DNA from: Guyparkeria sp.
GTDB lineage: Bacteria > Pseudomonadota > Gammaproteobacteria > Halothiobacillales > Halothiobacillaceae
Length of the DNA stretch: 32,354 bases
Direction: 5' to 3'
NCBI GenBank assembly: GCA_024636755.1
Contig: JAGXGL010000082.1
Location: 1-32,354 of the forward strand
Shown: piece by piece, positions 2,934 to 19,922 of the stretch
How the letters are laid out: each line of letters opens with the position of its first letter
How positions within the stretch are numbered: the stretch's first letter is position 1
Program-made: the position numbers and the translations under genes
The notes under the pieces: model-generated
What the model saw: only the letters and a program-made list of their open reading frames with translations
The model's database searches: none
What the model was told of the DNA's origin: nothing

Positions 2934-4025
2934 CTAGTGGTTGGCCTGTTGCTTGAGGTCCATGGGGGATAAGTCGAACAGCAGCCGAACGAGTTCGTGG
3001 TTGATGTAGTAGTTCTCTCGGCCCAGGCGATGCTTGTCGAGGATCCCTCCGTCGGCCAGTGCATCGAGGTACCGCGTTGCGGTGGCCCGGGAAACCCCGA
3101 GATCGCCCTCGACAAAAGCCACCTTGGTATACGGGTGCCGAAAGATGTTGTTGATCAAGTCCTGGCTGTAGAACCGGTAGTTATCCCGAATGTAGTGCTT
3201 GTGCCGTTGCAGCAGGTTACCGATAGCCTCGACTAGATCGGTCGTGTGCCGAGCCGTGACCGCCACCCCCCGCAGCATGTAAAGCAACCAGCTTTCCCAC
3301 TCGCCGGCATCACGTACCCGCTGGAGTTCGCTGTAGTACGCCTCCTTGGTCTGACTGATATACCGGGCCAGGTACAGGATGGGCGAGTCGAGCAAGCCTG
3401 CCCTCACGAGGAACAGGATGTTGACGATCCGCCCAGTACGGCCGTTGCCGTCGTAGAAGGGATGAATCGTCTCGAACTGGTGATGGATCACCGCCATGCG
3501 GACTAGCGGATCCTCGGCACTGTCCTCATGGATATAGTGCTCCAGCTCGGCCATCAGGGCCGGCACCTCCAGGGGTGACGGCGGTTCATACACCGTTTCT
3601 CCGGTTCGCAGATTTCGCAGCATCGTGCCCGGGGTGGCGCGAAACCCGGCATCGTTGCCTTCCAGGACTGCCTGGATCTTGCGGATGGTGTTCAGAGTCA
3701 AGAGCCCGGAGTCGCGCACCTCCCGGAGCCCCGCATCCAAGCCTTGGGCATACCAGGCCACCTCCTTGCCCGCCGGATCCACCGATTCAGGCTGAATCTG
3801 GTAGCGGTACAGCGCATCCTGCGTGGTGATGATGTTCTCGATCTCCGAACTGCTCTGGGCTTCCTGCAAGGACAGGGTCGACAGCAGCAGCCGCTCATTG
3901 GGGATCGTCCGGGCCACCCCCTTGAGCTCGGCCAGGTTGCTGCGAGCATCTACCAAGGCGCGCAACACCACGGGAGTCTCCAGCGGCCCGGCGGGCGGGA
4001 AGTAATCATGGGTATCGAGCGACAT
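2934..4025 (-). CDS. Fic family protein (AMPylase-like) with C-terminal winged helix
   Basis: The protein has 363 residues. The Fic core motif HPFYDGNGRTGR (188-199) is complete, including catalytic His188 and the phosphate-binding Gly/Arg residues. An N-terminal SSEIEN (59-64) fits the (S/T)xxxE(G/N) inhibitory helix, so this is a class II, self-inhibited Fic. The C-terminal ~70 residues look like a winged helix (VSRATATRYLDALADGGIL), suggesting DNA binding or autoregulation. Family members transfer AMP to hydroxyl side chains; the target here is unknown. A perfect inverted repeat sits 23 bp upstream of the start and an hsdM relic lies downstream. It is probably the intact survivor of a lost restriction-modification island rather than part of the nitrogen genes. 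Confidence 0.9.
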   Translation of the reverse strand: MSLDTHDYFPPAGPLETPVVLRALVDARSNLAELKGVARTIPNERLLLSTLSLQEAQSSSEIENIITTQDALYRYQIQPESVDPAGKEVAWYAQGLDAGLREVRDSGLLTLNTIRKIQAVLEGNDAGFRATPGTMLRNLRTGETVYEPPSPLEVPALMAELEHYIHEDSAEDPLVRMAVIHHQFETIHPFYDGNGRTGRIVNILFLVRAGLLDSPILYLARYISQTKEAYYSELQRVRDAGEWESWLLYMLRGVAVTARHTTDLVEAIGNLLQRHKHYIRDNYRFYSQDLINNIFRHPYTKVAFVEGDLGVSRATATRYLDALADGGILDKHRLGRENYYINHELVRLLFDLSPMDLKQQANH

Positions 4026-4048
4026 CAGAGCACCGTGTTTGGATCAAA

Positions 4049-4086
4049 CCCACCTGCTCAAAAAATCCACTTTTTGAGCAGGTGGG
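4049..4086. repeat. Perfect 16-bp inverted repeat upstream of the Fic gene
   Basis: CCCACCTGCTCAAAAA (4049-4064) is followed by a 6-nt spacer and its exact reverse complement (4071-4086). It starts 23 bp upstream of the Fic ATG. A related half-site, TCTCAAAAGTGG, lies at 4096-4107. Two readings are possible: an operator for the winged-helix domain of the Fic protein, or an RNA hairpin in its 5' leader. There is no T-run as in a terminator on either strand beyond the stem's own A/T tract. Confidence 0.75.
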
Positions 4087-4350
4087 TCGGTATCTTCTCA
4101 AAAGTGGTGATATCTGAACACACATGCACACCTTCGAACACGACGATCGGTAACGCAGGCGCTCAGGGTCGCAGCACATTTACCACCACGCCGCAATCGT
4201 CTGCAGGTGGTGGTTTGGTGGGCTGTCTCCGATAGAGTTCGAGACGCGCAATTTCAACCGGCTCGCGGGTGTCTGGAAAACCGGGGGTGATTCAGTCGGG
4301 ATCGTGGGCAATACTCATCGACAGGATTAGCCAGCCATCGCGAGGGCACC
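4087..4350. other. Intergenic region between Fic gene and nitroreductase pseudogene
   Basis: This 264-bp stretch probably holds the divergent promoters for the Fic gene (minus) and the broken nitroreductase (plus). Apart from the half-site at 4096-4107 I see no coding segment or clear regulatory element. Confidence 0.4.
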
Positions 4351-5369
4351 ATGAACTACGACGAGGCGGTGAAGGACACTTGGGATCTGGATGGCGTGTC
4401 GCCGAAGGGCGAGGCCGCGCAAATGGAAACGCTCATTCGCTATGCGACCCTGGCGCCGTCGGGTCACAACACCTAGTGCTGGCGGTTTCGGGTGGCGGCG
4501 AGCGCCATCCGTATTCTGCCGGACCTGAACCGGCGTACGCTGGTAGTCGACCCGGACGACCATCATCTTTATGTGTCGCTGGGCTGCGCCACAGAGAATC
4601 TTTGCCTGGCCGCCCGGGCGATGGGACTGGAGCCAGAGGCCGAGTTCCGGCCCGAGGGTGATGGGGAGATCCGGGTGGCCCTCACGCCCGGTGAGGCTGA
4701 GGTGTCGCCGCTCTTCGAGGCCATCGTCTCGCGCCAGTGCACGCGCAACGACTACGATGGCACGCCGCTTCCCGCCGAGGAGCTTCGCCTGCTCAAGGAA
4801 GCCGGTAGCGGTGATGGCGTCGCGGTGGTGCTGCTCACCGATCACGACGCCATCGAGCACGCGCTGGTATTCATCCGATTCGCCAACACCCGGCAACTGA
4901 ACAATTCCACCTTCCGCCGGGAACTCGAGGCATGGATTCGCTTTAACGACGCCGAGGCTGTGGCCAAGGGTGATGGCCTGAGTGGTCGGGCGACCGGCAA
5001 CCCCCAGGCGCCGCGCTGGCTGGGGAAAATCCTGATGCGCGCCGTGCTCAGACCGAAAGCAGAGAGCACCAAGTTGGCCCGCCAGGTGCGCAGTTCCGCC
5101 GGACTGGCGGTGTGTTCGTCTCGGCAGAGGATGACCGAGCGCATTGGGTGGAAGCCGGGCGCTGCTACCAGCGCTTTGCCCTGCAAGCCACGGCGCTGGG
5201 CATTCGCAACGCCTTCGTGAACCAGCCGGTGGAGGAGGCGAGCGTGCGCCCCGATTTCGCCAGGGCGCTCGGGCTTGGCGGCGGGCGTCCCGACCTGGTG
5301 GTGCGCTTTGGTCGTGGCCCGGCCATGCCCCGATCCCTGCGTCGCCAAGTGGAGAGCGTGATGCGCTGA
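4351..5369 (+). pseudogene. Acg-family FMN nitroreductase, inactivated
   Basis: From ATG 4351 the frame reads MNYDEAVKDTWDLD... to LAPSGHNT and then meets TAG at 4474-4476, where the family normally has Gln in SGHNTQPWRF; one C-to-T change would explain it. The same frame continues through VDPDDHHLYVSLGCATENL and further. A frameshift near 5095-5110 then moves the C-terminal part (GGVFVSAEDDRAHWVEAGRC..., to TGA at 5369) into another frame. Joined, the pieces give about 340 codons, the usual length of Acg-like nitroreductases (a family that includes DosR-regulated mycobacterial proteins). Two lesions make function unlikely. A sequencing error could explain one of them but probably not both. 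It is convergent with moeA. Confidence 0.8.
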
Positions 5370-5375
5370 CTCCGG

Positions 5376-5403
5376 CGCTTGCTGCGATAAGCGGGTTTCA
5401 GTT
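5376..5403 (+). terminator. Possible weak terminator after the nitroreductase pseudogene
   Basis: CGCTT (5376-5380) can pair with AAGCG (5389-5393) across an 8-nt loop, followed by GGGTTTCAGTTT. It sits between the convergent ends of the pseudogene and moeA. The short stem makes this a weak call. Confidence 0.3.
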
Positions 5404-6591
5404 TAAAGGCAGCACGGATATGGGCATACCCGCCTCGAAAGGTATTCGGGCCGGAATCACTGCAAGCGCCTCGGCTTGCTCCGGCTCCGTAGACCCGCCC
5501 CGCACCCACCATGTGCCGTCACCTGATTCGAGTCGGATCGGGAGATAGCGATCGACGTCTGCTAGTCCGAGGGGTTGCGTTAGCCGGGCGGTGATTCGTG
5601 CGGTCGAGGCATTGAGGCCCATCATTCCGTCCAAAAACGGTCGAACAATGCCGTGCAGTGCGGTCAGCAAGGCGGCAGGGCGACCGGGCAATGACAGGAT
5701 AAGTGTGCCCTTGACTGTCTTGGCTGCACTGGTGGGGCGCCCTGGTCGCATCGAGACGCCTTCGAACAGCGCAGTGCCAAGGCGGCGAAGAATGGTGCGT
5801 CCGAAGTCATGATCACCCACCGAACTGCCTCCAACGATGAATACTAGGTCGGCACTGCCGAGGTGCTGCTGCACCCGAGCCTCGATTGTCGGCAGGTGGT
5901 CGGCAATCGGGCCAATTGGCCCGATAACGTCGGCACCAAACCGAACAAGGGTGGCCTCCAGGAGGATGCTGTTGCTGTCATGAATGCCTCCGGCTGCACA
6001 GGGTTGACCGGGTGAGGTCAACTCATCGCCCGTCACCAGCACAGCCACACGTGGCGGTCTGCAGACCGGCAGGGTGGCGAGTCCGTGTCGGGCGGCGAGC
6101 GAGAGATGGCCGGGTTCCAGCCGAGTGCCGGCTGACAGTATTGGCGCGCCCGGCATGTTGATCGCTCCGACGGTCTCGCAGTCGGCCCAGAGCTGCACTG
6201 TGGCCGTTGTCCGCAGCATTCCCCCCGACACCGAGACGATTTCCCGACGCAGGACCACGTCGGCCCCCGGGGGCAGCGGCGCGCCCGTGGCGATGGGGGC
6301 ACAGTGCCCGCCATTGAGGGCTTCCGGCATGGCGTGACCCGCTTTCGATGCGGGTCGGACTTTTAACGTGCCACCATCGTTGACCTCTGCCTGACGGGCG
6401 GCGTAACCGTCCATCATGGCTCGATTGAACGGTGGGTAGGCTCGGGGCGCATGAATCGTCCGGGCGAGCACTCGTCCGAGGGCCTGGTCGAGAGATAGCT
6501 CGATCTCCGGGAGTTTGGGCGCAGCGGCACTCAGCGTGGCGATCGCCTCTTCCACGCTCGGGCTGGCCGTGGCGCAATGGCAGTTCGTCAT
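5398..6591 (-). CDS. moeA: Molybdopterin molybdenumtransferase MoeA
   Basis: The protein has 397 residues, near the usual ~410. Family motifs are clear: PPFNRAMMDGYA near residue 57, an LVTGDEL segment near 185, and GGSSVGDHDF near 255, followed by MRPGRPT and LPGRPAA. MoeA inserts molybdate into adenylylated molybdopterin to form Mo-cofactor in the cytoplasm. The ATG overlaps the mobA stop (ATGA), with GGGAGGAAAAG just before it, so it is translationally coupled. It is the last gene of the nitrate block. Its product supplies the cofactor that MobA converts to the guanine dinucleotide form used by NasA. A second, housekeeping moeA could exist elsewhere. Confidence 0.95.
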   Translation of the reverse strand: MTNCHCATASPSVEEAIATLSAAAPKLPEIELSLDQALGRVLARTIHAPRAYPPFNRAMMDGYAARQAEVNDGGTLKVRPASKAGHAMPEALNGGHCAPIATGAPLPPGADVVLRREIVSVSGGMLRTTATVQLWADCETVGAINMPGAPILSAGTRLEPGHLSLAARHGLATLPVCRPPRVAVLVTGDELTSPGQPCAAGGIHDSNSILLEATLVRFGADVIGPIGPIADHLPTIEARVQQHLGSADLVFIVGGSSVGDHDFGRTILRRLGTALFEGVSMRPGRPTSAAKTVKGTLILSLPGRPAALLTALHGIVRPFLDGMMGLNASTARITARLTQPLGLADVDRYLPIRLESGDGTWWVRGGSTEPEQAEALAVIPARIPFEAGMPISVLPLN

Positions 6592-7208
6592 GATCTTTTC
6601 CTCCCTATGCCGGGGATGGCTGGAGGTTGCAACAGGTCGGTCGGGGTATTCACGTTGAGAAACGCGTCGTGGTCGGCGGACAGGTCGCAGCAGACGTGTG
6701 GCCCGTTGGTGAGCAGATCGGTCAGCCGGGAGGGTACGGGGCCGACCAGCCGATGGAGCAGCGTCGGGATATGCAACAGGGTCACGCCCGGTTGCAGGCG
6801 ATCACCGTCGTAGGCGATCACCACTGGGGAGTCGGTTGCCCGTTGACGCGCAACAAGCCTGGCTGGCCACTGGGAGCGGTATCGTGGCATGTCGCATGGC
6901 GCGAGCAGCACCCAGTCATGACGCAACCGGCCGAGTGCGGCATGGACGGCCGCCGCCGGACCGCGACGGATGCCACCCGGGTCACTGATCGTGGGGTGAC
7001 CGAGGCGGCGATAAGCATCAAGATGCCGGTTGGCGACGATCACCAGTTCGTCGACGGACGGGGCCAGCGCCTTGAGCACGTGGCCAACCATTGGCTGGCC
7101 AAGGAACGGTTCGAGCCCCTTGTCCCGTCCGCCCATGCGACGGCCGGCCCCACCGGCGAGCACCAGCGCACTCAGTTTATGGCCGGCAGCGAGCGATAGG
7201 CCCTTCAC
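6588..7208 (-). CDS. mobA: Molybdenum cofactor guanylyltransferase MobA
   Basis: The protein has 206 residues. The N-terminus has the nucleotidyltransferase signature LVLAGGAGRRMGGRDKG; CDMP follows near residue 110 and NVNTPTDL lies near the end. MobA joins GMP to the molybdenum cofactor, giving the bis-MGD form that NasA-type nitrate reductases need. The start is GTG at 7208, whose GTGA overlaps the hemD stop. No ATG occurs before the nucleotide-binding motif, which supports this start. It sits between hemD and moeA in one transcription unit. Confidence 0.94.
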   Translation of the reverse strand: MKGLSLAAGHKLSALVLAGGAGRRMGGRDKGLEPFLGQPMVGHVLKALAPSVDELVIVANRHLDAYRRLGHPTISDPGGIRRGPAAAVHAALGRLRHDWVLLAPCDMPRYRSQWPARLVARQRATDSPVVIAYDGDRLQPGVTLLHIPTLLHRLVGPVPSRLTDLLTNGPHVCCDLSADHDAFLNVNTPTDLLQPPAIPGIGRKRS

Positions 7209-8056
7209 GAGTGGGCCTCGCGACGTTGCAGATGGTCGGCCAATGCGTCGACCAACGGGTGCATCAGGAAGCGTCGGCTAGGCATCACGTCGACTCGGAT
7301 GTCGAGGCCTTCGAGATGTTGCGCCATGACCGGACCGATGGCGGCCACCACCGCCCGTTCGAGGCCCCTGTGCAGTGCCTCAAGACGTCCGGCGCCCCGG
7401 GCAACCCGCAACAGGCGATTTATCTGTGGCTGGGCGGTGAACAGGATCACGTTGGTCTGTCCCCGCGCCAGCTCTTCGATCAGCGCGAGTACGGCCTCGG
7501 TCTCGCTTTCGGTGGCGTAGACGTAGGGGGCGACCGGCACCGGCTGGCTGCCGATCTCGTGGACCGCGCGGATCAGCGGGATGTTCGGCTCGGTCCCGTA
7601 GAGCACCACACCGGTGCGCGGCGCCGGCTGGTCCAGTTCTTGCAAGGTCGAGATCACCCCCTCGCTGGTTGGTCGTTCGGCGCGGACCTCGGCCTGGAGT
7701 CCCCAGCGCTTGAGAACGCGCCCCGGCTTGGGGCCGCGGACGATCAGGCGGGTCTGTTCCAGTCGGCGCAGGAAGGCCGTCTCGCGACTGCTGCGTTCGG
7801 CGGCAGCGTGCAGGCGAGCGATGCCCTCGCCGGTGAGCAGGATCAGGTCCCCCATCGACCGGTCGGCCAGGAAACGGTCGATCCATGCCAGGACGCCGTC
7901 CTGGTCGGGCGAGTCGTGGATGCTGACCAACGGGCAGCGCGTGACCATGGCGCCGCGGCGTTCGAGCAGGCCGGCCAGGATGTCGATCTGGCGTGATTCC
8001 GGCAACGCGACGCGACAGTTGTGGAAGGCCTGAGGGATTTCGCGGACCCGGCTCAT
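7205..8056 (-). CDS. hemD: Uroporphyrinogen-III synthase (HemD family)
   Basis: The protein has 283 residues from ATG 8056, which overlaps the cysG stop (ATGA). The frame is open further upstream, but that part lies inside cysG and is not coding. The sequence opens CRVALPESRQIDILAGLLERRG and has the two-lobed HemD pattern: TGEGIARL in the first half, a linker near VRGPKPGRVLKRWG, then TGVVLYGTEPN and ILFTAQPQINRLL. The enzyme cyclises hydroxymethylbilane to uroporphyrinogen III, the substrate of CysG on the way to siroheme. HemD is a divergent family, so identity rests on this pattern and on its position beside cysG. It may be a nitrate-dedicated second copy that raises siroheme supply for NirB. 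Confidence 0.82.
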   Translation of the reverse strand: MSRVREIPQAFHNCRVALPESRQIDILAGLLERRGAMVTRCPLVSIHDSPDQDGVLAWIDRFLADRSMGDLILLTGEGIARLHAAAERSSRETAFLRRLEQTRLIVRGPKPGRVLKRWGLQAEVRAERPTSEGVISTLQELDQPAPRTGVVLYGTEPNIPLIRAVHEIGSQPVPVAPYVYATESETEAVLALIEELARGQTNVILFTAQPQINRLLRVARGAGRLEALHRGLERAVVAAIGPVMAQHLEGLDIRVDVMPSRRFLMHPLVDALADHLQRREAHS

Positions 8057-9489
8057 GCGGCCCCCTTGGCCAAGTACGGCTCGCTGTCGGGGAAGACCGT
8101 GGGTATATCCCCGCGGCCATGAAACCATCCTAACGAGTCGTGCAGTTGCGTGACCTCGCCGACGATGAGCAGCGACGGCGATTCCGCCGCCGTGATCTTG
8201 TTGGGCAGGGTCGTCAGCGTGCCGGTGTAAACGCGCTGGTTGTCGGTTGTGCCGCGCTCTATCAGGGCGGCCTTGCCGCCGCGGGACATCCCGTGGGCGA
8301 TGAGCTGATCGCAGATCTGGCGGGCGCTGCCCAGGCTCATGTAGAACACCAGTGTGTCCCGGCTTTCGGCGAGGTTCTTCCAGTCGAGATCCAGCTCGTC
8401 GCCGCGTCGGTGGCCCGTGACGAAGCGGACCGACTGGGCGTGGTCGCGGTGGGTGAGCGGGATGCCCGCGTAGGCGGCGCAACCGCTGGCGGCAGTGATG
8501 CCGGGCACCACCTGGAAAGGCAGGCCTGCGGCGGCCAGCACCTCGATCTCCTCGCCGCCCCGGCCGAAGATGAAGGGGTCGCCCCCCTTGAGCCGGGCGA
8601 CACGCTTGCCTTGTGCTGCGAGATCGCGGAGCAGGCCGCTGATGTCTTCTTGGGAGCAGCTGTGATGGCCGGCGCGCTTGCCGACGTAGATCCGCTCGGC
8701 CTCGCGGCGCGCGAGATCGACGATGGCCGGGGCGACCAGCCGGTCGTACACCACCACGTCGGCCTTTTGCAGCAGGCGCAGGGCGCGAAAGGTCAGCAGG
8801 TCGGGATCGCCGGGGCCCGCCCCGATCAGATAGACCTCGCCGGAATCGGTCGGTGCGGCCTTGTCGGTGAGCAGCTGGGCGAGTTGGCCCTCGGCCTCGC
8901 GTTCCTTGCCAGACAGCACCAGGTTGCCGATCGGGCCATCGATCACGTCCTCCCAGAAGCGCTTGCGGGTCTCGAGGCCGTGGATGCGATCTTTGGCGGC
9001 TTGGCGGTAGCGGCCCAGCAGGTTGGCCAGCCGGCCGAAGCTCGCCGGGATAAGGGTCTCAAGTCGCGCCCGCATCAGCCGGGCGAGTACCGGCGAGCGT
9101 CCGCCGGTGGAGACCGCGATGGTTACCGGGCTCCGGTCGACGATCCCCGGCAGGATGAAGCTGCACAGCTCGGGCTGATCGGCGACGTTGACCGGGATGC
9201 CGCGGCACTCGCAGGCGGCGAATACCGCGCGGTTGACCTGTGTCTCATCGGTTGCGGCGATCACCAAGCGGTTACCGGCGACCATCGCGTCCGCGAATTC
9301 GGCTTCGTGCCAGGCAAGCCGGCCATCGTCCACCATGCGACGGGTCTCGCCGCTGACCGCGGGGGCGACGACCGTCACCCGGGCACCGGCGGCGCGCATC
9401 AGGTCCGCCTTGCGGGCGGCGACCGCGCCGCCGCCAACGACCAGACAGTCCTTGTCGCGCAGGTTCATGAAAATGGGTAGCTGGTCCAT
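8053..9489 (-). CDS. cysG: Siroheme synthase CysG (trifunctional)
   Basis: The protein has 478 residues, close to E. coli CysG (457). The N-terminal dehydrogenase/ferrochelatase half begins with [16 protein letters not shown] and holds the [14 protein letters not shown] segment. The SAM-dependent uroporphyrinogen-III methyltransferase half begins near residue 216 ([16 protein letters not shown]) and contains [13 protein letters not shown]. The enzyme makes siroheme from uroporphyrinogen III by two methylations, NAD-dependent oxidation and iron insertion. Siroheme is the prosthetic group of NirB encoded in the same block. The start at 9489 has GAGGGGAA about 8 nt upstream and lies 13 nt after nasA; the stop overlaps hemD. 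Confidence 0.96.
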
Positions 9490-9502
9490 GGGTCGGTTCC
9501 CC

Positions 9503-12166
9503 TCAGATGTTTGTTGCCGTCAGGCGCTTGGCGATGAGTTGCTTGAGCTCTGGGATGCAGGAGCCGCAGTTCGTGCCGCAGCGCAGGGCCTTGCCCAGTG
9601 CGTCCGGCGTGTCGAGGCCTTCGGCATCGATCGCCTCCAGAACCGTGGTTTCCCCGACCTGAAAGCAGGAGCAGACGATCGGGCCGGTATCGGGCATCGG
9701 CTCGGCGGGACGGCCGGCTAGCAGGCCGAGTCGTTGCGTTAATGACAGTTCGTCAGAGCGGATAAGTTCGGCCAACCACTCGCGTGAGGGCAGGTCGGGA
9801 GTGCGGCCAACGAACAGCACGGCGACCACCCGGCCGTCGACCACGCGGGCTGCGCGGAACTGGCCGCCAGCCGGGTCGTCGTAGGTCTGCCACTCGCCCC
9901 CTTCACCGAGGAGGTGACCGGCCCATGCAGACCAGTCGGCGATCGGTTCGCGACCGGCCATCTCATAGCGAATCCCACCCTCGATCGGGATGAGGGTCCA
10001 GTACTCGGCTTGTGGCCGTGCGACCGGCTCGCGACTGACCAGCGTGGCGAACCAGGTGGCGGCAAACGGGCGTACGGCGACGGTCGCGTGCTTGGATTCC
10101 GGCTGCCCGGAGTAGGGGTCGACGTGTGCTGGGATTAGCGAGCCCACGCAGGCGCTGCCGCTGAACTGGGCGTTCCAGTGGATCGGTACGAACAGTGAAC
10201 CCGGGTGCTGCGCCGTGGTGATGCGCACCCGGCCGATATAGCGGCCCTGCTCTCCACGGATTTCGGCGAATGGGTTCGGCTCGAGCCCGTAGCGGGCCGC
10301 GTCCTGCGGATGAACCTCAACGAACGGCTCATCGATGTGCTGCATCAGCCGCGATGCCTTGGCAGTGCGGGTCATCGTGTGCCACTGATCGCGAATCCGC
10401 CCGGTGTTCATGATGAGCGGGCGGCGTGCCGATACCTTGATGGCCGGGCCGGTGGCCGTGATGGCGACGAAACGCGCCCGGCCAGTGGGCGTGAAGAAGC
10501 GACCGTCCTCGAACAGGCGCTTGTGGCCCTGCCCGGTGGCCGGATCGATCGGCCAGTGGATCGGGGCGAGCCGGTCGTAGTCCGCGTCGCTCAACCGAGC
10601 CAACGCGCTGATATCGAAATCGCGCGAGCCGTGGTTCTCGTAGCCTGAGAGCGCGGCGTGCTCGCGGAAGATGTCTGCGGGCCCGCGATAGGGAAAGGCC
10701 TCAGCGAAACCCAGCCGCCGGGCCACCTCGGTAATCGTCCACCAGTCGTGGCGAGCTTGTCCGGGTGGCGTGAGAAAGCCGCGCTGGCGGGAGATGCATC
10801 GTTCGGAGTTCGTGACCGTGCCATCCTTTTCCGCCCAGCCGGTCGCCGGTAGGAGCACGTCGGCACAGGCGGTGGTGTCGGTCTCCTGCATGCAGTCGGA
10901 GACGATCACCAGCGGGCAGCGACGCAGCGTTTCGCGGACCCGCTCGGATTCCGGCAGGCTCACCACCGGGTTGGTCGCCATGATCCAGATTGCCTTGATT
11001 TGCCCGGACTCCACCGCCTCGAACAGGTCGGTGGCCTTGAGACCCGGTGCATTCGCCATGGCGGGAGACCCCCAGAAGCGTCCGACGCGCTCGACCGCGC
11101 CCGGTTGCTGGAAATCCATGTGGGCGGCCAGCTGGTTGGCCAGCCCGCCGACTTCACGACCGCCCATCGCGTTGGGTTGGCCGGTTATCGAGAACGGTCC
11201 CTGCCCGGGCGCACCGAGGCGGCCGGTGGCGAGGTGGCAGTTGATGATCGCGTTCGCCTTGTCCGAGCCGCTCGAGGACTGATTCACGCCCTGCGAGTAG
11301 ATTGTGACGGTCCGCTCGCGGCTGGCGAACCAGTCGAAGAAGATGTGCAGGTCTTCGATGTCGACGCCGGTCGAGCGTGCCACCGCCCCGATATCGGGCG
11401 CGTCGGCCCGAGCGGCGGCGATCGCCTGGTCGAACCCCTCGGTATGCGCGTTGATATAGGCCGTATCGATCGCGTTGTCGTCGGCCAGTCGCGCGAGCAA
11501 ACCATTGAAGAGAAAGGCATCGCTGCCTGGGGCGATCGCCAAATGCAGGTCGGCGATGTCACAGGTGGCAGTCTGGCGCGGGTCGATGACGACCACTCGC
11601 ATCTGGGGGCGGGCGCGTTTGGCGGCAGCCAGGCGCTGGTACGTTACCGGGTGGGTCCAAGCCGCGTTCGACCCCACTAGGACGACCAGGTCGGCGAGTT
11701 CCAGGTCCTCGTAGCAGGTGGGTACGGTATCGGTGCCAAACGCCCGTTTGTAGCCGACTACCGCCGAGGCCATGCATAGGCGCGAGTTGGTGTCGATGTT
11801 GGCCGTGCCGATGAAGCCCTTCATCAGCTTGTTGGCCGCGTAGTAGTCCTCGGTGAGCAGCTGGCCGGAGACGTACATCGCCACAGCATTCGGCCCGTGC
11901 TCATCGATGACGCGGCGAAAGCCGTCGGCGACGGTGTCGAGTGCGGTGTCCCAGTCCACTGCCTCGCCATCGACCTGCGGCACCAGCATGCGCCCGGCCG
12001 GGTCGACGGTCTCGTGCAGGGCGGAGCCCTTGACGCACAGGCGCCCGAGGTTGGCCGGATGATCCTTGCTGCCCACCACACCCACCAGACGCCCGTTGTC
12101 GAGGCGGGCGTCGACGCCGCAGCCGACTCCGCAGTAGGGACATGTTGTCTTGATGGTCTCGTGCAT
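9503..12166 (-). CDS. nasA: Assimilatory nitrate reductase catalytic subunit NasA
   Basis: The protein has 887 residues. An N-terminal [4Fe-4S] site is formed by Cys9, Cys12, Cys16 and Cys44 (TCPYCGVGCGV, then LCVKGS). The long molybdopterin-oxidoreductase body follows, with a dinucleotide-binding domain near 590-720. The C-terminus carries a BFD-like [2Fe-2S] domain with CxC at 832/834 and a cysteine cluster at 863-870. The enzyme reduces nitrate to nitrite in the cytoplasm using bis-MGD. No signal peptide is seen. The C-terminal BFD domain is typical of Klebsiella-type NasA, which takes electrons from a separate flavoprotein; the FAD oxidoreductase at 15352-16605 is the likely partner. It follows nirD after a 258-bp gap with its own sigma-54 promoter and ANTAR-type leader. 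Confidence 0.96.
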   Translation of the reverse strand: MHETIKTTCPYCGVGCGVDARLDNGRLVGVVGSKDHPANLGRLCVKGSALHETVDPAGRMLVPQVDGEAVDWDTALDTVADGFRRVIDEHGPNAVAMYVSGQLLTEDYYAANKLMKGFIGTANIDTNSRLCMASAVVGYKRAFGTDTVPTCYEDLELADLVVLVGSNAAWTHPVTYQRLAAAKRARPQMRVVVIDPRQTATCDIADLHLAIAPGSDAFLFNGLLARLADDNAIDTAYINAHTEGFDQAIAAARADAPDIGAVARSTGVDIEDLHIFFDWFASRERTVTIYSQGVNQSSSGSDKANAIINCHLATGRLGAPGQGPFSITGQPNAMGGREVGGLANQLAAHMDFQQPGAVERVGRFWGSPAMANAPGLKATDLFEAVESGQIKAIWIMATNPVVSLPESERVRETLRRCPLVIVSDCMQETDTTACADVLLPATGWAEKDGTVTNSERCISRQRGFLTPPGQARHDWWTITEVARRLGFAEAFPYRGPADIFREHAALSGYENHGSRDFDISALARLSDADYDRLAPIHWPIDPATGQGHKRLFEDGRFFTPTGRARFVAITATGPAIKVSARRPLIMNTGRIRDQWHTMTRTAKASRLMQHIDEPFVEVHPQDAARYGLEPNPFAEIRGEQGRYIGRVRITTAQHPGSLFVPIHWNAQFSGSACVGSLIPAHVDPYSGQPESKHATVAVRPFAATWFATLVSREPVARPQAEYWTLIPIEGGIRYEMAGREPIADWSAWAGHLLGEGGEWQTYDDPAGGQFRAARVVDGRVVAVLFVGRTPDLPSREWLAELIRSDELSLTQRLGLLAGRPAEPMPDTGPIVCSCFQVGETTVLEAIDAEGLDTPDALGKALRCGTNCGSCIPELKQLIAKRLTATNI

Positions 12167-12177
12167 TTCTCACTCGC

Positions 12178-12233
12178 AAAAAAAAGACGCCCGATCCAGC
12201 GTGGGCTTGCAGCCACGTGGAACGGACGTCTTT
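12178..12233 (-). terminator. Leader terminator of nasA
   Basis: AAAGACGTCCG (12233-12223) pairs with CGGGCGTCTTT (12193-12183), with one G-U pair. An inner CGTGG/CCACG stem lies within the loop and a run of eight T residues (12185-12178) follows. It ends 11 nt before the nasA ATG. A strong terminator directly in front of a gene points to attenuation. Its 5' arm contains the loop and 3' strand of the second hexaloop hairpin, so the two structures exclude each other. Confidence 0.85.
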
Positions 12234-12268
12234 GTCCAGGTCTATTTTTTCGCCCCGCCGTTGGGACG
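12224..12268 (-). promoter_or_regulatory. ANTAR-target RNA (two hexaloops) in nasA leader
   Basis: Hairpin P1 is CGTCCC-AACGGC-GGGGCG (12268-12251) and P2 is GGAC-AAAGAC-GTCC (12237-12224). Both loops have six bases with A at position 1 and G at position 4, the features reported for RNAs bound by ANTAR proteins such as NasR and NasT. P2 uses bases that otherwise form the terminator's 5' arm, so a stabilised P1-P2 would act as antiterminator. The predicted transcription start lies about 4 nt before P1. The nrtA leader repeats the layout with the same P1 loop. Seen directly: sequences and complementarity. Inferred: NasT binding. Confidence 0.85.
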
Positions 12269-12282
12269 CTTACCCTTGCTCA

Positions 12283-12298
12283 AGCAGGGTTCATGCCA
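12283..12298 (-). promoter_or_regulatory. Sigma-54 promoter of nasA
   Basis: On the minus strand TGGCATGAACCCTGCT has the invariant GG (12297-12296) and GC (12285-12284) exactly 10 bp apart and resembles TGGCAC-N5-TTGC. The start would be near 12272, just before hexaloop P1. It would give nasA and downstream genes their own transcript independent of the nrt-nir operon. Confidence 0.65.
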
Positions 12299-12359
12299 CC
12301 CACGTCATGACTGACAATCAATGGCTTACGCACGACAGACGGCGGCATGGTCGCGTCGA

Positions 12360-12408
12360 TGCACCAGCGGCGATCACCATCGAGTGGCGACCGTTCCATC
12401 GTGGTGCA
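12360..12408. promoter_or_regulatory. Two NtrC-like half-conserved sites upstream of nasA
   Basis: TGCACCAGCGGCGATCA (12360-12376) and CGTTCCATCGTGGTGCA (12392-12408) each have one perfect 7-bp half of the NtrC consensus TGCACYA-N3-TRGTGCA and a weaker other half. Their centres are about 96 and 128 bp upstream of the predicted nasA start, a usual distance for NtrC enhancers. Assignment is by inspection only. Confidence 0.45.
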
Positions 12409-12424
12409 TGGCGAACCAATCGCT

Positions 12425-12787
12425 TTACGCCTCGGGCTGGGCAAGCTGCACCCTGCCGTCGACGACCCGTACGGGGTAGCTGCGGGCACTGACCGAGTTC
12501 TCGAGGCACTGGCCGTCGCGGAGGCGGTAGTGCTGCTTGTTCAGCGGCGAGGCAACCACCGGCTCGCCGTCGAGGTCACCGAGGATGCCTCGCGAAAGGA
12601 CGTTGGCTTGGCCCAGCGGGTCCCAGTTACCGATGGCGTAAACGGATGGCTCCGTGTGGGGAATCAGGAACAGGGCCACCTGGCGTTTGCCCACCAGGGC
12701 GGCGACGCCGGATTGGGGCACCAATTCGTCCAGCGCGCAGATGTCGATCCAGGTGGACTCGGTACGTTCTGCCACAGTCATGGTCAT
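12425..12787 (-). CDS. nirD: Nitrite reductase small subunit NirD
   Basis: The protein has 120 residues, the typical NirD size. It reads WIDICALDELVPQSGVAALV... NWDPLGQANVLSRGILGDL...VVASPLNKQHYRLRDG, which is the Rieske-like fold of NirD. The Cys/His cluster ligands of true Rieske proteins are absent, as in other NirD proteins. It partners NirB in reducing nitrite to ammonium with NADH in the cytoplasm. The ATG overlaps the nirB stop (ATGA); a second ATG two codons later is possible. The gene ends just before the nasA promoter region. Confidence 0.95.
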   Translation of the reverse strand: MTMTVAERTESTWIDICALDELVPQSGVAALVGKRQVALFLIPHTEPSVYAIGNWDPLGQANVLSRGILGDLDGEPVVASPLNKQHYRLRDGQCLENSVSARSYPVRVVDGRVQLAQPEA

Positions 12788-15330
12788 GCCTCCTCGGCCA
12801 GGGTCTCGGTCCCGGCACGCTGTCGTTTTTCCTCAGCGGTCGCCGGACGGATCTGGCCGCGCTCCTCGACGAACAGCACGTTGTCATCCGGCTGGTCGGA
12901 ATTGACGAAGCTGCGAAAGCGCTTGAGCTTGGCGGGATCGGCCAGGGTGCTCTTCCATTCGCACCGGTAGCTGTCGACCACTGCCTGCATCTGGCTCTCG
13001 AGTTCCTCACCGATTCCGATCCGGTCGTCGATCACCACCTCGCGCAGGTACTCGAGTCCGCCTTCGAGGTTCTCCAGCCAGACGCTGGTGCGCTGCAGCC
13101 GGTCGGCGGTCTTGATGTAGAACATCAGCAGCCGGTCGATGTAGCGGATCAGGTGCTCGTCGTCGAGATCGGTGGCGAACAGGTCGGCGTGTCGCGGCTT
13201 CATGCCGCCGTTGCCGCAGACGTAGAGGTTCCAGCCGTTCTCGGTGGCGATAACGCCGATGTCCTTGCTCTGGGCCTCGGCGCACTCGCGGGTGCAGCCG
13301 GAGACGGCGAACTTGAGTTTGTGCGGCGAGCGCAAGCCCTTGTAGCGGTTCTCGATGTGGATCGCCATGCCTACCGAGTCCTTCACGCCGTAGCGACACC
13401 AGGTGGAGCCCACGCAGGATTTCACCGTGCGCACTGACTTGCCGTAGGCATGACCGGTCTCGAAGCCCGCCTCGATCAGCTCCTCCCAGATCGGCGGTAG
13501 CTGCTCCTTGCGAGCGCCAAACAGGTCGATGCGTTGGCCGCCCGTGATCTTGGTGTAGAGACCGTATTTCTTGGCCACGCTGCCGATTACGATCAGTTTT
13601 TCGGCGGTGATTTCGCCGGCCGGCACCCGTGGGACGATCGAGTAGGTGCCGTCTTTCTGCATATTGGCGAGGTAGGTGTCGTTGGTGTCCTGCAGCGGCT
13701 GGTGCACGGGTTCGAGCACGTGCTCGTTCCATACCGAGGCGAAGATCGAGGCGGCCGTCGGCTTGCAGATATCGCATCCCAGACCGCGGCCGTGACGCTC
13801 GAGTAGTTCCGCGAAGGTACGGATGCCCTCGACCCGCACCAGGTGGTAGAGCTCGATGCGGGTATGCGAGAAGTGCGCGCAGATGTCGGTGTTGACCTCC
13901 ATGCCGCGCTTGGCAAGCTCGTGGTCGACGGTCGACTTGAGCAATGCGGCGCAGCCGCCGCAGCCGGTGGAGGCCTTGGTCGCGCCCTTGATGTCGCCCA
14001 GGTTGGCGCAACCGCCGTCGAGTGCTTCGATGATCCCGCCCTTGGTGACGTTGTGGCAGGAGCAGATCGTGGCGGTCTCCGGCAGGGCGTCGGGGCCCAA
14101 GGCCGGTGGGCCGTCACCGGCCGGCGCGATCAACGACTCGGGGTGCTCGGGCAAGTCGAGGCCGTTGCGGGCGTATTGGAGCAGGATGTCGTAGTCGGCG
14201 CTGTCGCCTACCAGCACCGCGCCGATCAGCTTACCGTCAAGCACCACCAGTCGCTTGTAGGTGGCGTCCGGCTCGTTGATGGTGGCATAGGCCTGGGCGC
14301 CGGGCGTGCGGGCGTGCGCATCGCCGATTGAGCCTACCTCGACGCCCAGCAGCTTGAGCTTGGTGCTCATGTCCGCGCCAGTGAAGGCGGCCGTCTCGCC
14401 GGCCTCGGTCAACTGCTTGACGGCGACGTCGGCCATGGCATAGCCCGGCCCGACGAGACCGAAAATCTGGCGGTTCCACAGCGCGCATTCGCCGATGGCA
14501 TAGATGGCCGGGTCGGAAGTGCGGCACTGGTCGTCGATCACGACGCCGCCGCGTTCGCCCACCGCGATCCCGGCCTTGCGCGCCAGCTCGTCATGCGGAC
14601 GGATGCCCGCAGAGAAAAGCACCAGGTCGGTCTCCAGCGCCTCGCCATCGGCGAAGTTCATGCGCAGCCGGTGGTTTTCGCCGGCGTCGATCAGTTGCGT
14701 GGCCTTGCCGGTGTGTACACGCACGTCGAGGGCCTCGATCTGGCGACGGAGCATGTCGCCGCCGGCCAGGTCGAGTTGGGCGGGCATCAGCTGCGGGGCG
14801 AACTCGACGACGTGGGTCTCGAGGCCCAAATGCTTGAGCGCGTTGGCTGCCTCAAGACCCAGCAGGCCGCCACCGACCACCACGCCGCGCCGGCCGTGTT
14901 CGGCATGGTCACGAATCGCATCGAGGTCCTCGAGGGTGCGATAGACCAGGCAGCCGTCCTGATCCCGACCCTCGATGGGTGGGACGAACGCGTACGAGCC
15001 GGTGGCCAGCACCAGCCGGTCGTAGCCGTGCCGGGTACCGTTACGCGTCACCACCTCGCGGGCGTCGGTGTCGATTTCGACCACGGGGGTGTCGAGGTGA
15101 AGGTCGATGCCTTGCTCGCGGTAGTTTTCGGCCGTGGTGAGCGCGAGATCCTCAGCGTTCTTGCCGGAAAAGTACTCGGAGAGATGCACGCGATCGTAGG
15201 CGGCGCGGGGTTCCTCGCCGAAGACGGTCACGTCAAAGCGGGCAAGGCCGTCGGCCTCGATCATCTTTTCGACGAAGGCATGACCGACCATGCCGTTGCC
15301 GATCACGATGAGTTGTTGTCGGTTGCTCAT
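12784..15330 (-). CDS. nirB: Nitrite reductase [NAD(P)H] large subunit NirB
   Basis: The protein has 848 residues, matching E. coli NirB (847). In order: FAD/NAD(P) domains (LIVIGNGMVGHAFVEKM at the start; GVVVGGGLLGLEAANAL near 150), a BFD-like [2Fe-2S] domain near 415-470 (CSCHNVTKGGI, TGCGGCAALL), and the sulfite/nitrite reductase half. The siroheme/[4Fe-4S] ligands are Cys639, Cys645, Cys679 and Cys683, almost the same numbers as in E. coli. It reduces nitrite to ammonium with six electrons in the cytoplasm. The start has a GGAG 6-7 nt upstream and lies 21 nt after the FAD oxidoreductase. It depends on siroheme from cysG and hemD in the same block. Confidence 0.97.
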   Translation of the reverse strand: MSNRQQLIVIGNGMVGHAFVEKMIEADGLARFDVTVFGEEPRAAYDRVHLSEYFSGKNAEDLALTTAENYREQGIDLHLDTPVVEIDTDAREVVTRNGTRHGYDRLVLATGSYAFVPPIEGRDQDGCLVYRTLEDLDAIRDHAEHGRRGVVVGGGLLGLEAANALKHLGLETHVVEFAPQLMPAQLDLAGGDMLRRQIEALDVRVHTGKATQLIDAGENHRLRMNFADGEALETDLVLFSAGIRPHDELARKAGIAVGERGGVVIDDQCRTSDPAIYAIGECALWNRQIFGLVGPGYAMADVAVKQLTEAGETAAFTGADMSTKLKLLGVEVGSIGDAHARTPGAQAYATINEPDATYKRLVVLDGKLIGAVLVGDSADYDILLQYARNGLDLPEHPESLIAPAGDGPPALGPDALPETATICSCHNVTKGGIIEALDGGCANLGDIKGATKASTGCGGCAALLKSTVDHELAKRGMEVNTDICAHFSHTRIELYHLVRVEGIRTFAELLERHGRGLGCDICKPTAASIFASVWNEHVLEPVHQPLQDTNDTYLANMQKDGTYSIVPRVPAGEITAEKLIVIGSVAKKYGLYTKITGGQRIDLFGARKEQLPPIWEELIEAGFETGHAYGKSVRTVKSCVGSTWCRYGVKDSVGMAIHIENRYKGLRSPHKLKFAVSGCTRECAEAQSKDIGVIATENGWNLYVCGNGGMKPRHADLFATDLDDEHLIRYIDRLLMFYIKTADRLQRTSVWLENLEGGLEYLREVVIDDRIGIGEELESQMQAVVDSYRCEWKSTLADPAKLKRFRSFVNSDQPDDNVLFVEERGQIRPATAEEKRQRAGTETLAEEA

Positions 15331-15351
15331 GGTGTGCTCCTGTCCGCAGTG

Positions 15352-16605
15352 TCAGGCGGCGTTTTCGGTGGGCGAGTCGTGAGAGGGGGTGAGTGCGTCG
15401 TCCGGCTCGCAGAAGTGTTTGCCGAACAGCAGACGGTCACGGAATGTGCGCACGTTGCCGTGGTCCTCGAGCAGGTCGAAGTACCACCCCCCGTCGGCCA
15501 CATCGCCGACCAGTACCGCGCCGACCACGTTGTCGTCGCGGAGAATGAGTTTCTTGTAAATACCCTGTTGCGGGTCGCGAAGGCGCAGACAGTGATCGCC
15601 GGGTTCGGGATCAATCCGGCCGGCGGAGAACACGTCGATGCCGGTCACCTTCAGGCGGGTGGATGTGAGTCGGTCGCGGTAGTGTCCCTGGCCGGTGGTC
15701 AGCACGTCGGCCAGCACGCGGGCCTGATCCCAGATCGGGGCGACCAGGCCGTAGGTGCGACCACGATGCTCGATGCATTCGCCCAGGGCGTAAATGGCCG
15801 GGTCATCGCTGCGCAACTGCTCGTCGACCCGGATGCCGCGGCCGCAGTCCAGCCCGGCAACTTGCGCGAGCGAGATCTCCGGTTGGATGCCGATGGTGAA
15901 CAGCACGGTCGAGGCCGGCAGCCGGCGGCCGTCGTCCAGCCGCACGGCCTCGGCCCGTGCAACTCCCTCGATCGCGTTAGCCTGGGCGTCCAGCACGAAG
16001 CGCACGCCCCGAGCCGCCAATTCCTGCCGCAAGATGGCGGCGGCTTCGTCGTCCAACTGGCGGTTCATCAGCACCGGGTTGCGGTGGACCACCGTCACAT
16101 CGACGCCGTGGCCGGCGAGCCCGGCAGCCGCTTCCAGTCCCAACAGTCCGCCGCCGAGGATCACCACCGGCCGGGGATCGGACAGCCGGGTGCGCAGGAA
16201 CTCGACGTCGGCGAGATCCCGGAAGCCGCCCACGCCGGCCAGATCGATGCCCGGTATCTCCGGCAGCCAGGGGCGCGAGCCGGTGGCGAGCACAAGCTGG
16301 TCGTAGGGGACGGTCACCCCGGCGCGACTGGTCACCTCGCGCCGCTCGCGATCGATCGTCACCACTGGGTCGCCGAGATGCAGCGCAATGTCGTGGCGGG
16401 CGTACCACTCGCGTGGGTTGAGCATGATCTCCGCGACCGTCTTCTCGCCCGCAAGCACCGGTGAGAGCATGATCCGGTTGTAGTTGCCATGCGGCTCGGC
16501 GCCGAACACGGTGATCGCGTGGCTGCCGGCCTCATGCTCGACCAGCTCCTCCAGCAGGCGCGCGCCGGCCATGCCGTTGCCGATTATTACTAGCCGCGGC
16601 TTCAT
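15352..16605 (-). CDS. FAD/NAD(P)-dependent oxidoreductase, probable NasA electron donor
   Basis: The protein has 417 residues and resembles the first half of NirB without the BFD and siroheme parts. It has an FAD-binding RLVIIGNGMAGARLLEEL at the N-terminus, LATGSRPWLPEIPG near residue 105, a NAD(P)-binding VVILGGGLLGLEAAAGLAGHG near 150, and the second FAD contact PAIYALGECIEH near 272. The C-terminal ~90 residues follow the NirB pattern (KKLILRDDNVVGAVLVGD). NasA lacks a flavin module but has a C-terminal ferredoxin-like domain, so this protein most likely passes NADH electrons to NasA, as Klebsiella NasC or Bacillus NasB does. The ATG's downstream partner is nirB; its own ATG overlaps the nrtD stop (ATGA). 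Assignment to NasA rather than NirB is inference. Confidence 0.85.
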   Translation of the reverse strand: MKPRLVIIGNGMAGARLLEELVEHEAGSHAITVFGAEPHGNYNRIMLSPVLAGEKTVAEIMLNPREWYARHDIALHLGDPVVTIDRERREVTSRAGVTVPYDQLVLATGSRPWLPEIPGIDLAGVGGFRDLADVEFLRTRLSDPRPVVILGGGLLGLEAAAGLAGHGVDVTVVHRNPVLMNRQLDDEAAAILRQELAARGVRFVLDAQANAIEGVARAEAVRLDDGRRLPASTVLFTIGIQPEISLAQVAGLDCGRGIRVDEQLRSDDPAIYALGECIEHRGRTYGLVAPIWDQARVLADVLTTGQGHYRDRLTSTRLKVTGIDVFSAGRIDPEPGDHCLRLRDPQQGIYKKLILRDDNVVGAVLVGDVADGGWYFDLLEDHGNVRTFRDRLLFGKHFCEPDDALTPSHDSPTENAA

Positions 16606-18521: not shown

Positions 18522-19922
18522 TCAGACCTGGTCCTCGCCCTTGAGACCGATGGGGAACTGTTTGAGGTACTCGTTCGGCTTGCGCCCGTCGTAGGTGACG
18601 CCGTCGATAAACTCACTCTGCGGCGGCTTGAAGCCGGTTTCGCTGTCGAAATCCGGGAAGTCGTCGGCGCTCATCGTTCCGTCGGCGATCAGCTCGCGCG
18701 CCGCCTGGGTGTAGATGTCCGGGCGGTAGACCTGCTTGGCGGTCTCCATGTACCAGTCGTCCGACTTGCGCTCGGCAATCTGGCCCCAGCGGCGCATCTG
18801 CGTGAGGTACCAGATGGCATCCGAGTAGTAGGGGTAGGTGGCGTTGTAACGGAAGAAGACGTTGAAGTCGGGGACCGGGCGCTCGTCGCCCTTCTCGTAC
18901 TCGAAGGTGCCGGTCATGGAATTGGCGATCACCTTCTCATCGGCGCCGACATAGTTCGGCCGCGCCAGGATCTCGACCGCCTCGGGCCGGTTGGCGTTGT
19001 CGTCGGCATCCAGCCACTTGGCGGCCCGGATCAGCGCCTTGACCAGACGCACGGTGGTATTGGGATACGTCTCGGCGAACTCGCGCGTGATCCCGAACAC
19101 CTTCTCCGGGTTGTTCTTCCAGATCTCGTAGTCCGTGATGACCGGCACGCCGATGCCCTTGAACACGGCCTGCTGGTTCCAGGGTTCACCGACGCAATAG
19201 CCGCTGATGGTGCCGGCCTCGAGGGTCGCGGGCATTTGCGGGGGCGGGGTGACCGAAAGCTGGGCATCGGCGTCGATGAGCCCGGAGGTGTCGCCGTTGC
19301 TCGGATCGTAGTAGCCCGGGTGAATCCCGCCGGCAGCCAGCCAATAGCGCAGCTCGTAATTGTGGGTGGAGACGGGAAACACCATGCCCATCTTGAACGG
19401 CTGACCCTCGGCATTACGCCGGTCGACCACCGGTTTGAGGTAGTCGGCCTTGATCGGGTGGACTGGTTTGCCATCGTCGCGCTTGGGCAGGTCGGGGAGC
19501 ATTTCCTCCCAGACGTCGTTGGACAGCGTGATGCCGTTGCCATTGAGGTCCATGGAGAAGGGCGTGATGATCTCCGCTTCGGTGCCGTAACCGATGGTGG
19601 CGGCGAGCGGTTGCCCGGCAAGCATGTGTGCCCCGTCGAGTTGGCCGGTAATCACGCCGTCGAGCAGCACCTTCCAGTTGGCCTGGGCTTCAAGCGTGAC
19701 GTACAACCCCTCGTCTTCGAAGTAACCCTTCTCGTAGGCGATGGCGAGTGGCGCCATGTCGGTCAGCTTGATGAAGCCGAAGGTCAGGGCCTCCTTCTCC
19801 GCGTAGCCGATTTCGGCCTGCGCCGGCAGGGCGGTCAGGGCGCTGCCGGCCAGTGCCGCACCGGCCAGGCTCATCGCGGTGCGCTGCAAAAAGCGGCGTC
19901 GTGACGGGGTTGTTTGGGTCAT
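18522..19922 (-). CDS. nrtA: Nitrate-binding periplasmic protein NrtA
   Basis: The protein has 466 residues from ATG 19922, chosen because AGGAGAG lies 7-8 nt upstream; an in-frame ATG at 19973 would lie within the leader terminator. A twin-arginine signal peptide is plain: SRRRFLQ at 7-13, a hydrophobic stretch, then a likely AQA cleavage near residue 36. The mature part follows Nrt[25 protein letters not shown], then [20 protein letters not shown] near 255. It captures nitrate in the periplasm for NrtB/NrtD. It is the first gene of the nrt-nir transcription unit, behind a sigma-54 promoter and an ANTAR-type attenuator. Tat export suggests folding before export; the reason is not visible in the sequence. 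Confidence 0.96.

Follow-up and report, generated by a model that had tools for sequence, protein, structure and literature searches.

The nitrate assimilation (nas) cluster of this Guyparkeria genome raises the question of why a leader with a promoter of its own should stand directly before nasA, inside a gene run that already begins with a leader of the same design. The window, by which we mean the whole 32,354-nt stretch of DNA analysed, is contig C8 of a genome that is 79% complete; among its named relatives, Guyparkeria sp. WRN-7 is the nearest, with a NasA that is 83% identical. The minus-strand order is nasT, nasS, leader 1, nrtA, nrtB, nrtC, nirB-like oxidoreductase, nirB, nirD, leader 2, nasA, cysG, hemD, mobA and moeA; nasS and nasT are adjacent and nitrate assimilation genes lie downstream of a leader, as in nas operons controlled by NasS and NasT. 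For the nasA product, a NasC-type model is the best in sense, yet the score falls under that model's cut-off. The window also encodes a Fic-domain protein of the SoFic type (2934-4025, minus strand). Based on the sequence, we read 12298-12178 as an antitermination leader that responds to NasT and has an NtrC/sigma-54 promoter of its own, making it the second module of this kind in the co-directional nas cluster, and we give this reading a probability of about 0.87. One operon would then probably have a pair of matched switches under the control of a single protein.

Table 1. Positions in the window of the nas genes and of the predicted elements of the two leaders.
Feature	Position	Strand	Remarks
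nasT	22050-21418	-	receiver-ANTAR antiterminator; Pfam ANTAR + Response_reg; predicted binder of both leaders
nasS	21406-20189	-	periplasmic-binding-protein-like nitrate sensor, NasT partner; Pfam NMT1_2; adjoins nasT
NtrC-like pair, leader 1	20175-20159 and 20154-20138	-	centres ~ -119 and -98; conserved blocks in four Guyparkeria genomes
IHF-like site, leader 1, CAACCTGTTGTTT	20105-20093	-	centre ~ -51; one mismatch
Leader 1	20074-19958	-	parts ordered as in leader 2: sigma-54 (20074-20060), P1 (loop AACGGC, 20037-20032), P2 (loop AAAGGC, 20005-20000), terminator to T-run
nrtA	ATG at 19922	-	first gene behind leader 1
nirB-like NAD(P)H oxidoreductase	15352-16605	-	between nrtC and nirB
nirD	12787-12425	-	Pfam Rieske_2; last gene ahead of leader 2
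NtrC-like site I, leader 2, TGCACCACGATGGAACG	12408-12392	-	centre ~ -128; 6/6 + 3/6 match to TGCACC-N5-GGTGCA
NtrC-like site II, leader 2, TGATCGCCGCTGGTGCA	12376-12360	-	centre ~ -96; 3/6 + 6/6 match
IHF-like site, leader 2, YAANNNNTTGATW (TAAGCCATTGATT)	12328-12316	-	centre ~ -50
Leader 2	12298-12178	-	sigma-54 element, P1, P2, terminator sharing P2
Sigma-54 -24/-12 element, leader 2, TGGCATGAACCCTGC	12298-12284	-	GG-N10-GC; two mismatches to TGGCACG-N4-TTGC; conserved
ANTAR hairpin P1, leader 2	12268-12251	-	CGTCCC-AACGGC-GGGGCG; loop AACGGC 12262-12257
ANTAR hairpin P2 (antiterminator), leader 2	12237-12224	-	GGAC-AAAGAC-GTCC; loop AAAGAC 12233-12228
Intrinsic terminator, leader 2	12233-12183, T-run 12185-12178	-	11-bp stem from P2 loop + P2 3' arm
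nasA	12166-9503, ATG at 12166	-	assimilatory nitrate reductase-type molybdoenzyme with C-terminal BFD-like domain; from Pfam and nas-cluster gene order

The sigma-54 element of leader 2 reads TGGCATG-N5-TGC and has the consensus flanks expected of an NtrC-activated promoter; the terminator stem behind it pairs AAAGACGTCCG with CGGGCGTCTTT and runs into the T-run. The initial annotation had named this element, P1, P2 and a terminator sharing P2 before nasA, and all four are present there on the minus strand; the order and P1 loop of leader 1, before nrtA, bear out its view that the module recurs with an identical P1 loop, and the start that it placed near 12272 agrees with the one predicted from the position of the -24/-12 element. 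Based on the description of ANTAR antitermination leaders in Ramesh et al. 2012, both leaders have two hexaloops, each with A as the first and G as the fourth nucleotide, and the leader 2 terminator overlaps P2 such that, on paper, the two exclude each other. The ANTAR protein encoded in the genome is NasT, the single match identified, although the assembly, being 79% complete, may lack another such protein or a further leader; with one ANTAR protein found, both gates fit the same regulator.

The minimum-free-energy fold of leader 2 consists of P1 and the terminator stem and lies 4.1 SD below shuffled sequences (z -4.1). Both elements are still predicted in the fold of a 263-nt read-through RNA, and P2 forms when the terminator 3' arm is removed. 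Forcing P2 makes the best fold less stable by 11.8 kcal/mol in leader 2 and by 16.2 kcal/mol in leader 1; termination would thus be the default and P2 would need help to form, as expected of an ANTAR target. A strict composite, in which two hairpins with A..G.. hexaloops are combined with a terminator that shares P2, occurs exactly twice in the 32 kb, at leaders 1 and 2, and in 0 of 150 dinucleotide shuffles. The sigma-54 element by itself is weaker evidence than this composite (the pattern TGGCAY-N6-TGC alone has 3 matches, with 0.59 expected). A scan for sigma-70 promoters found none in 3000-16000.

The spacer upstream of leader 2 has diverged among three Guyparkeria genomes (G000, WRN-7 and G009), yet four blocks within it are invariant: GCACCA and GATGGA in NtrC-like site I, CGCTGGTGCA in site II, and TTGATT within YAANNNNTTGATW, which fits the IHF consensus. 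The block in site II is the longest invariant run of the region, and the observed run lengths were reached by 4 of 5000 column shuffles. In each of the two NtrC-like sites, one half is perfect and the other degenerate; the position and spacing of the sites are conserved, with 32 bp between them in all three genomes. At E. coli glnAp2, NtrC sites are also spaced by 32 bp. Single matches to the NtrC site are common by chance and not rare by count in the window, and we therefore rely on conservation instead of counts. In the 32 kb, the IHF-like site of leader 2 alone matches the consensus perfectly (0.09 matches expected), and the match is perfect in the leader 2 regions of all three genomes. Upstream of leader 1, the sites follow the same order, with the NtrC-like pair 21-22 bp apart; the IHF-like site there has one mismatch in WRN-7 and G009 as well, and is absent in two further Guyparkeria genomes (G003 and G010). 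A whole module of putative enhancer, promoter and leader recurs at both places, its NtrC-like and IHF-like sites being additions to what the initial annotation had named. Genes for NtrC, RpoN and IHF alpha are present in the genome. A third sigma-54 element (TGGCATGGGAGTTGC, 22112-22098, minus strand) precedes nasT by 48 nt; it has an NtrC-like site upstream (22213-22197) but lacks an ANTAR leader. Ntr control probably extends to nasTS, which would make a feed-forward arrangement.

Both leaders stand at the same two places in WRN-7 (G005) and G009. Within the window, leaders 1 and 2 share 46% identity, whereas each is 76-90% identical to its own counterpart in those two genomes; the two leaders thus match in design and are not a recent copy, and we rejected the idea that leader 2 is a recent duplicate of leader 1. 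In an alignment of 15 leaders, 99.3% of cells are paired in P1 and P2 (76.8% when shuffled) and 97.8% in P1 and the terminator (84.4% when shuffled), percentages that are biased upward because several of the aligned sequences were picked by a hairpin scan. Changes on both sides of the stem occur at four of the six P1 pairs, where they are compensatory, at three of the four P2 pairs and at three of the 10 terminator pairs, and hence at seven pairs in each of the two structures, P1 with P2 and P1 with the terminator. One terminator pair of leader 2, for example, is A-U in the window and G-C in WRN-7.

Work on related systems indicates how such a module may act. The nas scheme of Klebsiella combines NtrC with antitermination by NasR (PMC5424462), and in Paracoccus, NasT binds a nasA leader RNA and is freed from NasS by nitrate (PMC3795266). 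The leader hairpins of NasS-NasT systems are required for nitrate-dependent expression (PMC3795266, PMC5424462). From the Paracoccus and Klebsiella work we infer the mechanism at this locus; binding, start sites, read-through and the signal are likewise inferred. Under limitation for fixed nitrogen, NtrC in its phosphorylated form, with DNA bending by IHF as an aid, would start RNA near 12272 and 20048; by default, each leader RNA would fold its terminator and stop before nasA or nrtA. Upon sensing of nitrate or nitrite, NasS would release NasT, which would bind the P1 and P2 hexaloops, hold P2 and block the terminator. Transcripts that run on from nrtA-nirD would face a second gate under the same signal, and both gates should open together. 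The simpler use of leader 2 may be that a nasA block with its own promoter needs its own gate. The module would likely make the nasA-cysG-hemD-mobA-moeA block self-sufficient in promoter supply and silent without nitrate, rather than set it below nirBD.

Every part of this arrangement is of a known type; the repetition is uncommon, albeit with precedents. The Klebsiella oxytoca nasF leader likewise follows an Ntr/sigma-54 promoter and has P1, P2 and a shared terminator, but it is a single leader at the operon head, read by NasR, a one-component ANTAR protein to which a nitrate domain is fused; in the loci examined, nasA was not preceded by a second leader. The nas leaders identified in Enterobacter and Pantoea have the same loops, AACGGY and AAAGGC. 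The two-protein system of a NasS sensor and an ANTAR NasT is shared with Azotobacter vinelandii nasAB, Paracoccus nasA and Pseudomonas aeruginosa nirBD, for which a single leader per nas operon is reported, whereas the window has two, each with NtrC-like and IHF-like sites. Several ANTAR terminators within one locus are known from Enterococcus faecalis eut, where four precede eutP, eutG, eutS and eutA (PMC3369931); unlike the window, that locus concerns ethanolamine in a Firmicute and phosphorylated EutV, with no sigma-54 promoter described at each gate. In Desulfotomaculum acetoxidans, 13 ANTAR terminators are predicted, in six units. Two genes of one nas operon, narK-bjgb-flp-nasC of Bradyrhizobium diazoefficiens, have predicted NasT hairpins in their leaders (narK and bjgb), and the downstream nasC and the operon are independent of NasT under denitrifying growth (PMC6759348); the promoters suggested there, unlike those in the window, are of the alphaproteobacterial FixK/RegR type. 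Internal ANTAR terminators are therefore already known, whereas the full module before nasA is rare, and we found no description of a repeated promoter-plus-leader module before nasA in the literature searched.

Using a covariance model of P1 and the terminator (E up to 1e-4), we identified matches in at least 53 of 370 gammaproteobacterial genomes, at least five of which have two matches, each pair co-directional and on one contig. With positions compared by eye, the usual layout has a single leader lying 4-11 kb upstream of nasA. Of the 30 loci whose NasA is most similar, only two, both from Guyparkeria, were seen to have a leader immediately ahead of the gene, which is a lower bound. Pokkaliibacter has a weak leader match before nasA. 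In one genome (G098, locus L098), three co-directional ANTAR leader matches lie within 7 kb. In genus g4 (L089 4450-8448, L090 and L091), two leaders are separated by 3.4-3.9 kb; in L089, genes for an MFS transporter and a kinase/phosphatase-domain protein follow the first leader, and genes for an NMT1-like protein and a nirB-type reductase follow the second.

Some of these layouts bear on an alternative to which we give slightly less than an even chance, namely that leader 2 heads a separate unit, nasA-cysG-hemD-mobA-moeA, which came to lie behind nirD via cassette exchange, with minor read-through from nirD and two adjacent NasT-controlled operons. The 258-nt spacer between nirD and nasA holds a full enhancer-promoter set. 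In genus g3 of the same family (G012 and G016), one leader stands at the operon head and another just before nasA, with nirD and the latter about 2 kb apart and an opposite-strand gene in between; Oceanospirillum has separate leader matches before nrtABC, nasB-nasA and nirBD. Guyparkeria G003 and G010 keep nasT-nasS-leader 1-nrtABC, but their nirB-type/nasA pair is a different one (36% and 55% identity) and leader 2 is lacking, so leader 2 travels with the nirBD-nasA arrangement, and cassette exchange likely explains why a promoter-leader module sits inside the gene run. L087 (5467-11227) and L088 are the loci of two Guyparkeria genomes in which this other pair stands downstream of nasTS-leader-nrtABC and leader 2 is missing. 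However, the genes are tightly packed up to nirD, and the terminator search of the window found no other minus-strand terminator between nirD and leader 2, so some read-through is to be expected. A separate unit is compatible with our reading of 12298-12178 as a second NasT-responsive module, and the two are not exclusive.

The two gates might instead differ in NasT threshold, through the P2 stem and terminator strength, so that one NasT pool would open the nrtA-nirD and nasA blocks at different nitrate levels, with a repeated NtrC-IHF-sigma-54-ANTAR module whose two P2/terminator types have been kept apart over genus-level time. The P2 stems do differ (GGAC/GTCC in leader 2 and GAGC/GCTC in leader 1), each stem type is retained between species, and the terminator segments are predicted at -31.9 (leader 2) and -35.2 kcal/mol (leader 1). 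These energies are predicted and close, however, and with identical P1 loops and near-identical P2 loops (AAAGAC and AAAGGC), we regard differing thresholds as unlikely.

Less probable still is the proposal of the initial annotation that double gating keeps nasA and the cofactor genes below or behind nirBD and so limits nitrite build-up. Its premises, namely a second matched leader with its own sigma-54 element, a second gate for read-through RNA and a separate nasA start, hold at the level of sequence; the lower or later expression of nasA relative to nitrite reductase does not follow from them. In a flux model in which an equal fraction e passes each gate and the promoters have strengths p1 and p2, the flux is p1*e into nirBD and (p1*e + p2)*e into nasA, giving a nasA/nirBD ratio of e + p2/p1. 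Although read-through RNA passes two gates, the inner promoter and enhancer set adds RNA, and equal promoters give 1 + e, a ratio above 1; nasA would thus be lower than nirBD only if the inner promoter were weak, and unless it is much weaker, the inner module would raise nasA relative to nirBD, so that a limit on nitrite build-up does not follow either. Two gates under the same regulator do not in themselves cause a delay, and nearly all other nas clusters examined have no pre-nasA leader despite the same nitrite problem. An ordinary intergenic terminator with ANTAR-like hairpins by chance can be dismissed as very improbable: terminator-like sites do arise by chance (8 in the window, 6.2 expected), but the composite was absent from the shuffles, the leader is conserved with compensatory changes, and nasT lies nearby.

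At the gathering threshold, Rfam gave no match in the window. We dismissed weak matches to ctRNA_p42d, P11 and STnc40, as they arise from the terminator hairpin. Below the threshold, both leaders match narK RNA (RF03032) over its full length (12297-12223 and 20073-19994, minus strand), with scores of 32.5 and 29.7 bits under a gathering cut-off of 43.2; a relative (G017) scores 43.9. The 72-nt consensus of this family consists of GG-N10-GC, a hairpin with loop AACGGC and then CGAC-AAAGAC-GUCG, and RF03032 looks like a sigma-54 promoter plus an ANTAR leader. As drawn, the family has only P1 paired, leaves P2 unannotated and ends before the terminator, whereas the leaders in the window extend to it. 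A search of the literature found no mention of a narK RNA family by that name.

If RF03032 is a NasT/ANTAR leader, a listed RNA motif would gain a function, and part of its model would describe promoter DNA, not RNA. For Guyparkeria, the locus may offer a natural test of the effect of a second antitermination gate where the same regulator and promoter type already head the operon, and the cassette types with and without leader 2 would make a comparison within the genus possible.
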